IMG/VR virus record: IMGVR_UViG_3300037963_005058
Location: 1-35,532 of that record
Strand: one strand, 5' to 3'
Length of the DNA: 35,532 bases
Source: a virus
Shown one piece after another: positions 1,993-3,732 of this stretch (within the stretch, counting starts at the first letter, position 1; each line of letters starts with the position of its first letter). Position numbers and translations under genes: made by a program. Under the pieces are notes generated by a model. The model worked only from the letters and a program-made list of their open reading frames with translations. It was not told the origin of the DNA and searched no databases.

Positions 1993-2064
1993 ATCCCCAC
2001 CCTGTGTTTTAAAATCAAATCTGTTTGAGGGATTCAATAACAAATCACACCTTTGCGGGTGGGG
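1993..2064. repeat. Inverted repeat at the convergent gene junction
   Basis: CCCCACCC (1995-2002) and GGGTGGGG (2057-2064) are perfect complements about 54 bases apart. A second, mutually exclusive pairing is AATCCC (1992-1997) with GGGATT (2029-2034). The element sits where the late + transcript and the - strand modification transcript converge, so it could slow or end transcription. It lacks the T-run of a classical terminator, so the role is tentative. Confidence 0.3.
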
Positions 2065-2791
2065 CCCTTGTTTCTATCATTTCTTTAAGGGCAAGTCCAA
2101 CCCGATATCCGACTGCCGGCGTCACGGCATTACCTAAGCATCTAACTCGGTCCACCCGATGGGGAATCCCTGAAGCCACTCGACAAACTCCGGGTTCACG
2201 GTCCCACCTAGCACCTCCGGCAACTGCGGCGTGTGCCCAGTGTCCTTCCATCCCTTCCCGCTTCGGTAGTCGCGAGCGGTCGGAGTCGGGAACGTTTCGG
2301 TATGCGATGATAAAAACTCTAAACCTAACGTGTGGGGCACCGACCGCCGAACTCGATAAAGTGTCAAATCTTGCATTGTACCCGATGCTGGCCAGTCCCC
2401 CAAGAACGTTTCCGATTCCGTTGGCGTTAGTAATAAGCCCTGCCGGGTTTTCCACGACGACGTACTGGGGCAATAGCTCGCTACAAATTCGCAGCATGTG
2501 CCACCAAAGGGAGGAATGGGGGCCAGCCACACCAGCTTGTTTTCTGACGACTTGCCCGCTGACGCTTGTGTCGGTGCAGGGGAATCCTCCCGCGATGATA
2601 GAAACTCTTTCGAGATTAGCAGCTCCAACTGTTCGGGCATCTTCAAACCTCCTTGCTTTTGGCCAATGTTTAGCCAGCACGCGGCGGGCGTACTCGTTTT
2701 TCTCAACCTGCCAAACTGTTTCACCCAGGCCGGCAGCTTCAAGTCCAAGCTCAAGGCCGCCAATCCCGGAAAATAAACTTCCGATTTTCAC
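2045..2791 (-). CDS. dcm: C5-cytosine DNA methyltransferase
   Basis: This 248-aa enzyme transfers a methyl group from S-adenosylmethionine to C5 of cytosine in DNA. Motif I is FSGIGGLELGLEAAG (residues 7-21), motif IV GGFPCTDTS with catalytic Cys72, motif VI VVVENPAG with Glu114, motif VIII GAPHVRFRVFIIA (151-163), a very short target-recognition region, and motif X RCLGNAVTPAVG (217-228). It is short for the family, as phage versions often are. The start overlaps the end of the PAPS-reductase-like gene by four bases (ATGA), so the two are co-translated. A second open frame with its own strong SD lies wholly inside it (2134-2640). Likely role: protecting phage DNA from host restriction. Confidence 0.95.
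   Translation of the reverse strand: MKIGSLFSGIGGLELGLEAAGLGETVWQVEKNEYARRVLAKHWPKARRFEDARTVGAANLERVSIIAGGFPCTDTSVSGQVVRKQAGVAGPHSSLWWHMLRICSELLPQYVVVENPAGLITNANGIGNVLGGLASIGYNARFDTLSSSAVGAPHVRFRVFIIAYRNVPDSDRSRLPKREGMEGHWAHAAVAGGARWDREPGVCRVASGIPHRVDRVRCLGNAVTPAVGYRVGLALKEMIETRAPPAKV
2134..2640 (-). CDS. Gene nested in dcm in another frame (candidate overprinted protein, 168 aa)
   Basis: This frame lies entirely within dcm, shifted by one base. Its ATG at 2640 is preceded by AAGGAGG (2654-2648) with a seven-base spacer, among the best SD sites in the window, although here it is also dcm coding sequence. The frame is open for 168 codons. The protein shows STSSWKTRQ, WPASGTM, PTPTARDY and NPEFVEWLQGFPIGWTEL, a set I recall from many phage proteins usually called hypothetical. 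Caution: those motifs occupy the same DNA as conserved dcm motifs (VVVENPAG, the segment before GAPH, and RVASGIPHRVDR), so family resemblance alone could be a shadow of dcm conservation. Function unknown; a methyltransferase partner or anti-restriction role is speculation. Confidence 0.55.
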   Translation of the reverse strand: MPEQLELLISKEFLSSREDSPAPTQASAGKSSENKLVWLAPIPPFGGTCCEFVASYCPSTSSWKTRQGLLLTPTESETFLGDWPASGTMQDLTLYRVRRSVPHTLGLEFLSSHTETFPTPTARDYRSGKGWKDTGHTPQLPEVLGGTVNPEFVEWLQGFPIGWTELDA

Positions 2792-3732
2792 GGAGTATAT
2801 TCTCCGTCAGGACCAGGCATATCGCAGAGCCCCCAAAGCTGGCACCCGCGCTCACTTTCATCGGCAGGAAGAAAAAGCTCAAGACCGTATTGATAACCGC
2901 CCCGCTCTGTTTGTGCCCACTTGACAACTTTGTCTATTGGCCAACACTCGCCCGTCCCGCCGGTCTTAGCTTGAAAGAAAGCTGGCTTGCCAATGCCACG
3001 GCTCTCGAATGTCTCGCCGTTTTCCGCTAACCGCTGCGCCGCTTTCTCTGCAACCTTTTCCTCTAGTGTCCTGATTTGAACAATTCTATCGGGGTCCGTT
3101 TTTGCGACTGCGAGAATCTCGCTTTTCTTTGACATAATACAAGGCCAGCAACCCACCCTCTCAGATGGATATTTGTCTTTGAGGTACAACGGACAAGGGC
3201 GTAAGTTGTTACGCTTGTGAATGTCGATTACGTCCTGAACTACCCACGTAATTAGAGGCCGCCAAGTGTCACAAAGATTTTTTCCCAAGATAGAACCAGG
3301 CTCCCATCGGTCCATTTTGCTGCGGGCCTTACTCTCGGCTGCCCGAATCCCGACCGCGTTAATCGGCAAAGGGTCGTTGCCAAGCTCCCGGATATAGTCC
3401 CGGATAGGGAGCTTTTTTAATTGCTCAGTGCAGAACCTCGACATGCGCGAGGGCATTGCGCCCTTAGAAACCACAAGGTCAGGCATCCCTCCAGGATATT
3501 TTTTGCTGACGACTCTGTGAAAGCGCTCGCCAAGCAACGGCTTAACAGTGTCCTCTATGTACTGATAAAGCACGGGGTGCTCCCACCCTGTATCCGCCCA
3601 GACATAGTGAACGTCGTTGCTTTCCTCGAACCCGTTTTCCTTTAACCACAGAGCCATGGCAATCGAGTCCTTGCCCCCGCTAACAGAGCAAACGATTGGC
3701 CTACCTGAATCTTTGATTTCTTGGTTGTTCAT
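2788..3732 (-). CDS. PAPS-reductase-like protein (PP-loop ATP pyrophosphatase family)
   Basis: This 314-aa protein belongs to the PAPS reductase/DndC-like superfamily, whose members use an ATP-binding PP-loop in sulfur or adenylyl chemistry. The PP-loop SGGKDS is at residues 18-23, GIRAAES at 129-135, and cysteines occur at 101, 154, 180, 195 and 198. The RPCPLYL and GCWPC segments resemble an iron-sulfur or thiol site. Phages usually do not reduce sulfate, so a nucleic-acid sulfur modification role is a reasonable inference from the adjacent methyltransferase, to which it is coupled by a four-base overlap. Its ATG 3732 lies inside the end of the 52-aa gene upstream. Confidence 0.88.
   Translation of the reverse strand: MNNQEIKDSGRPIVCSVSGGKDSIAMALWLKENGFEESNDVHYVWADTGWEHPVLYQYIEDTVKPLLGERFHRVVSKKYPGGMPDLVVSKGAMPSRMSRFCTEQLKKLPIRDYIRELGNDPLPINAVGIRAAESKARSKMDRWEPGSILGKNLCDTWRPLITWVVQDVIDIHKRNNLRPCPLYLKDKYPSERVGCWPCIMSKKSEILAVAKTDPDRIVQIRTLEEKVAEKAAQRLAENGETFESRGIGKPAFFQAKTGGTGECWPIDKVVKWAQTERGGYQYGLELFLPADESERGCQLWGLCDMPGPDGEYTP

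Follow-up and report, generated by a model that had tools for sequence, protein, structure and literature searches.

The locus analyzed here raises the question of whether a second open reading frame, buried within a phage cytosine methyltransferase gene, encodes a protein of its own or is only a shadow of the codons around it. The window, i.e., the whole stretch of DNA studied (35,532 nt), is the virus record IMGVR_UViG_3300037963_005058, which carries phage terminase and portal genes. The original prediction described a nested 168-codon gene at 2134–2640; the coordinates, the size and the one-base shift held, and only the strand had to be corrected to minus, the plus strand of 2134–2640 being full of stops in the frame read from 2134. 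The nested frame (beta) starts with ATG at 2640 and ends with TAG at 2134 of the minus strand. The AAGGAGG motif announced seven bases ahead of the ATG is present in the window sequence, the 5' flank reading ...AAGCAAGGAGG TTTGAAG ATG. The listed beta motifs were likewise found, with STSSWKT overlying VVVENP (motif VI) of the outer frame (alpha). The features of the pair are as follows.

2045–2791, minus strand: alpha, GTG start, 248 aa; C5-cytosine DNA methyltransferase catalytic chain with motifs I–VIII and X
2756–2773, minus strand: alpha motif I FSGIGG, SAM binding; nearly invariant in the alignment
2564–2590, minus strand: alpha motif IV GGFPCTDTS with the catalytic Cys 72; G69, P71 and C72 invariant in 87 alphas
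2444–2452, minus strand: alpha motif VI ENP; E114 and N115 invariant
2117–2143, minus strand: alpha motif X RCLGNAVTP; G220, N221 and P225 nearly invariant
2134–2640, minus strand: beta, 168 codons, frame alpha+1, wholly within alpha; putative recognition part and motif IX
2648–2654, minus strand: beta Shine-Dalgarno (SD) sequence AAGGAGG, 7-nt spacer; AAAGAGG or AGAAAGG in relatives
2446–2466, minus strand: beta STSSWKT box, over alpha VVVENP; codon identity excess +0.18
2374–2385, minus strand: beta SGTM box, consensus TWPRSGMMRNG; codon identity excess +0.34
2266–2289, minus strand: beta PTPTARDY module; 0–7 copies of PTP modules in relatives
2143–2196, minus strand: beta box NPEFVEWLQGFPIGWTEL, assigned to motif IX; codon identity 0.79–0.92 vs. 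0.26–0.31 expected; in the alpha frame in single-chain relatives
2297–2635, minus strand: overlap I, constraint in both frames
2144–2296, minus strand: overlap II, dominated by the beta frame; alpha frame mostly linker

A PAPS-reductase-like gene (2788–3732, minus strand) overlaps the alpha start by 4 nt, which suggests that translation of PAPS reductase, alpha and beta is coupled. The window also contains, at 866–1555 on the plus strand, a match to PHROG_3704 'ferredoxin' (1.9e-56; PHROGs class: auxiliary metabolic genes). An antisense open frame of 299 codons (2025–2924, plus strand) spans the whole alpha/beta pair; it was considered as a candidate gene and rejected as probably incidental, since it is broken in the relative L004.

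Analysis of the alpha chain demonstrated motifs I, IV (PC), VI (ENV/ENP), VIII and X of C5-cytosine methyltransferases. Alpha matched TIGR00675, PHROG_363 (2e-63) and, by sequence, M.HhaI (1e-43), and its AF2 model (pLDDT 82) was matched to M.HhaI by Foldseek at 7.5e-14. The match to PF00145 (2.4e-36) was limited to positions 1–165 of the 324 in the profile and ended after motif VIII, with RCLGNAVTP of motif X following approximately 50 residues later. The model comprised a confident methyltransferase core and a linker (residues 174–211) mostly of pLDDT below 50 (174–184 and 187–211). Neither motif IX nor a recognition part was found in the alpha chain: the Pfam match stops at 165/324, motif IX lies in the +1 frame and the linker is disordered. 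In the model, the apparently disordered linker occupies the place expected for the small domain.

The beta chain gave fewer matches. It was assigned to PHROG_1008 (1.1e-16), as were 100 of the 101 betas examined, and Foldseek with its model (pLDDT 65) returned no significant fold match. A Pfam search of the 101 betas yielded nothing consistent, and the N-terminal 110 residues of beta match no known domain. The sole PDB profile match was weak (E=1.8) and fell on the GFP motif (motif IX) in a DRM-type DNA methyltransferase from a plant (4onj). The C-terminus of beta consists of NPEFVEWLQGFPIGWTEL and two further residues. A box of the LNPDWVEWLMGFPxGWT type was found in the alpha frame, just before LGNAVVP, in nine single-chain relatives (L493, L236, L460, L471, L457, L431, L405, L432 and L263), reading LNPxWVEWLMGFPxxWT...LGNAVVP in L431, L493 and L457. 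On the strength of this in-frame position before motif X, we assigned the box that ends beta to motif IX of C5-methyltransferases. When viral contigs were scanned at the DNA level for codons of motif IX with those of motif X downstream, motif IX fell in the beta frame (alpha+1) in 78/80 cases, in frame with alpha in 2/80 and in frame +2 in none; with a longer gap allowed, the arrangement was split in 67/80 and in frame in 13. Beta most likely represents the missing small domain of the methyltransferase, i.e., the recognition part with motif IX, an identity that the original prediction did not recognize. Its middle part carries 0–7 PTPx modules, typically [WL]PTPxAxD, with a median spacing of 37 residues (422 unique ORFs), which might form a modular recognition array; arrays of such modules were seen in L262, L413, L253, L442 and others.

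Several tests addressed selection in the second frame. With the alpha protein of the window kept and its synonymous codons shuffled, the 168-codon +1 frame stayed open in 418 of 20,000 shuffles (2.1%), which is unusual but, for a single sequence alone, no proof. When alpha served as the only query and also set the limits of the region, without regard to the beta ORF, the +1 frame was open in 78 of the 80 loci retrieved (median 146 codons) vs. 5.9% of the synonymous shuffles, and no stop avoidance was noticed in frame +2 of these loci (6.34 stops vs. 6.44 in shuffles). By this comparison, chance openness is excluded across the relatives.

The codon test was performed on 141 non-redundant loci and compared the probability of the same codon, given the same alpha residue, with its expectation. 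Outside beta, the excess was about zero (at most +0.02 for alpha residues 2–49, and similarly for 224–247). Inside beta, it amounted to +0.18 at TSSWKT, +0.34 at PASGTM, +0.35 at TETFPT, +0.52 at PEFVEW and +0.61 at LQGFPI, and codon identity peaked at NPEFVEWLQGFPIGWT of beta (0.92 observed vs. 0.31 expected). Over alpha residues 197–211, conservation of the third codon position equaled that of the second (0.71 each) and exceeded that of the first (0.52), which is a signature of the +1 frame. The ratio of frame-wise pairwise identity to that of shuffles for +1 was 1.33–2.27 inside the overlap and 1.02–1.10 outside.

Substitution classes gave a concordant picture for the clade of the window, the counts being pairwise, non-independent and uncorrected for multiple hits, with few SS sites (21–26) in its overlap regions. 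In overlap I, the beta ratios were 0.32 (NN/NS) and 0.15 (SN/SS), and those of alpha 0.26 (NN/SN) and 0.12 (NS/SS). In overlap II, beta was strongly constrained (0.05 and 0.01, respectively) and alpha neutral on one ratio only (NN/SN 0.99); since NS/SS was 0.28, alpha keeps some constraint there. The contrast was less marked in 80 further close pairs, for which overlap II gave ratios of 0.74 and 0.40 in beta and of 1.01 and 0.55 in alpha. Outside the overlap, the beta-frame ratios were mostly near neutral (0.58–1.12), with one small-count value of 0.41. These results overturn part of the original prediction, in which VPDSDRSRL and RVASGIPHRVDRV were taken for conserved dcm motifs: conservation at these places resides in the beta frame, with alpha at 0.99–1.01 (NN/SN) and 0.28 and 0.55 (NS/SS). 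Hence, the alpha reading there is largely the shadow, beta being conserved and alpha near neutral on one ratio.

An SD match of five or more together with an ATG was found near the beta start in 28% of loci vs. 9% of shuffles, and in 6% vs. 8% for frame +2. The SD was only partly conserved: it was enriched in the beta frame, but the exact AAGGAGG occurred only in the window, its close relatives having AAAGAGG or AGAAAGG in that position. Altogether, by these measures, both frames were shown to be coding and under selection. A second frame with stops and no constraint in related dcm genes had been named as the outcome that would speak against a real protein; neither stops nor absence of constraint was seen in the related loci.

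The nested arrangement is not confined to the window. Searches with beta only and with alpha only each returned four close relatives, on the same four contigs, and in eight divergent annotated phages (about 30–45% identity) both frames were open and both products similar. Among the profile-fetched loci, beta lay in alpha+1 in 173/173 from viruses and phages and in 80/80 from bacterial genomes, which ranged from Bacteroides and Bacillus to Mycobacterium and Sphingobium. Judged by these profile matches, hundreds of sequences from phages and bacteria share the arrangement. Beta matches were present in 17 of 369 gammaproteobacterial genomes. In 14 control genomes, no match to phrog_1008 was found, while PF00145 matched in 10 of them; in five canonical single-chain C5-methyltransferases used as controls, the +1 frame was closed by 6–56 stops.

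All fetched loci together provided 498 beta-profile ORFs, of which 486 are in +1 and overlap alpha, 11 share the frame of alpha itself and one is in +2. Ten of the 11 carry the motif-IX box in frame and the remaining one (L198) is a frame mosaic; the lone +2 case (L305) is probably a frameshift. A stand-alone homologue had been proposed as a further check, and none was found among these 498 ORFs, many of whose loci were fetched with the alpha or beta profiles, so that a distant lone beta could escape detection. This absence is understandable, as beta most likely belongs to the same enzyme as one of its subunits. Six of the single-chain relatives (L493, L236, L460, L471, L457 and L431) have motif IX in the alpha frame and a +1 frame that is open over the PTP modules (124–253 codons) and closed upstream, which may represent an intermediate or alternative architecture. 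Since motif IX is in alpha and the recognition modules are in +1 in some relatives, the division of labor between the chains appears to vary. Two irregular loci were also noted: a frameshifted copy in Mycobacterium phage Llama (L497, 1129–1888), which the annotation splits into two neighboring 'DNA methyltransferase' genes, and a gammaproteobacterial locus (L506, 1227–2012) with an in-frame alpha stop inside the overlap and an intact beta, either a pseudogene or a case of recoding.

We consider it highly probable that a single DNA stretch, read in two frames, encodes a naturally split C5-cytosine DNA methyltransferase with alpha and beta as its two chains. Alpha would bind SAM and provide the catalytic Cys through motifs I, IV, VI, VIII and X, its frame across the recognition/IX segment serving mainly as a flexible linker that allows the chain to reach motif X. 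Beta would be initiated internally from its own SD, supply the DNA-recognition part and motif IX, dock on alpha and so complete the enzyme. The complex would then methylate DNA and presumably shield the phage genome from host restriction. The location of the target-recognition domain in beta, the binding of the two chains and the methylation of DNA by the complex are what we infer from the sequences. The neighboring genes that were examined revealed no restriction partner, which points to a likely role as a protective orphan methyltransferase.

Three other explanations were weighed. Beta might be an untranslated by-product of the conserved alpha codons and PHROG_1008 an annotation artefact. 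Conservation of alpha alone does produce a beta-profile score (median 30 bits in synonymous shuffles) and beta was not found on its own, but the observed median was 94 bits, stops were avoided in +1 only, synonymous constraint was restricted to beta and maximal at its motifs, and in overlap II of the window clade beta evolved at a dN/dS of 0.01–0.05 with alpha NN/SN at about 1. Codon conservation, the avoidance of stops and the substitution rates in the two frames therefore refute the shadow, one of the two outcomes foreseen in the original prediction, to the point where we give it next to no chance, and the same tests corroborate the other outcome, a real overprinted protein that travels with phage dcm genes. 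Such a protein could have an unrelated job outside the enzyme, e.g., in counter-defence or regulation of alpha, and the lack of a fold match and of a known domain in its N-terminal 110 residues would agree with that. We regard this as very unlikely, as the motif IX at the end of beta is absent from alpha and, in single-chain relatives, precedes motif X in the same frame, and beta was never seen apart from alpha.

There could also be no separate beta at all: a ribosome slipping from alpha into +1 after motif VIII would extend the same chain by motif IX and the recognition part. The order in the DNA (I–VIII, recognition part, IX, X) is indeed that of a canonical single chain, and the relatives with motif IX in alpha and modules in +1 fit this scheme, but motif X would require a second slip back. 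Moreover, the N-terminal part of beta, upstream of any useful slip, is constrained (dN/dS of 0.15–0.32 in overlap I) and SD+ATG is enriched 3-fold over shuffles in the beta frame. Separate translation of beta is favored over frameshifting because of this constraint on its N-terminal half and the SD enrichment, and a frameshift fusion seems improbable.

Annotation already contains both readings of this DNA, PHROG_363 (alpha) and PHROG_1008 (beta), each named 'DNA methyltransferase'. Beta is annotated and alpha missed in Stenotrophomonas phage SOVA965 and Mycobacterium phage XFactor, and the reverse applies to Mycobacterium phage Nitzel. Phage genomes would thus carry a half-annotated methyltransferase, labeled PHROG_363 or PHROG_1008 depending on the frame that the gene caller keeps, and this would account for many phage dcm genes that apparently have no recognition domain. 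The pair is a long and widespread same-strand overprint in which dual-frame selection can be demonstrated directly from sequence, and its two products, instead of being unrelated, apparently belong to a single enzyme. The two-frame register of a split enzyme and the evolution of its specificity become open to testing. It is conceivable, though we advance it tentatively, that a large, phage-centered class of methyltransferases is a completely overprinted heterodimer, with a PTPxAxD-type array in the +1 frame of beta (0–7 copies, about 37 residues apart) and the alpha frame reduced to little more than a stop-free tether. If so, new DNA specificities could arise as beta gains or swaps modules, and the alpha frame would be compelled to remain open.

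Split enzymes of this kind are already known; the phage-wide extent and the recognition part borne by beta appear to be new. Our literature search, which covered open-access papers, found nothing on nested phage methyltransferases. The closest counterpart is M.EcoHK31I (YGGCCR; GenBank X82231), a two-polypeptide C5-methyltransferase to which alpha/beta was likened by its published description. The gene of its small chain lies inside that of the large chain in another frame, with both chains needed for activity; a nested layout of this kind was observed directly here. M.EcoHK31I is a bacterial restriction-modification enzyme, whereas alpha/beta is phage-borne with no restriction partner among the neighbors examined. 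As in alpha/beta, motifs I–VIII and X of M.EcoHK31I are on the large chain and motif IX is on the small one (PMC3404938). Its predicted target-recognition domain was placed in the large subunit (PMC3404938), whereas selection here puts the recognition segment in beta. M.AquI is another C5-methyltransferase naturally split into two polypeptides, but its split lies in the variable region and leaves both motifs IX and X on the small chain (PMC3404938), whereas here motif X remains in the alpha frame and beta is nested. In M.HhaI, to which the alpha core matches, and M.HaeIII, the target-recognition domain and motif IX are within one chain, unlike in alpha. Finally, the artificially split M.SssI, M.HhaI and M.BspRI, which work by fragment complementation, are engineered sequential fragments with no overprinting.
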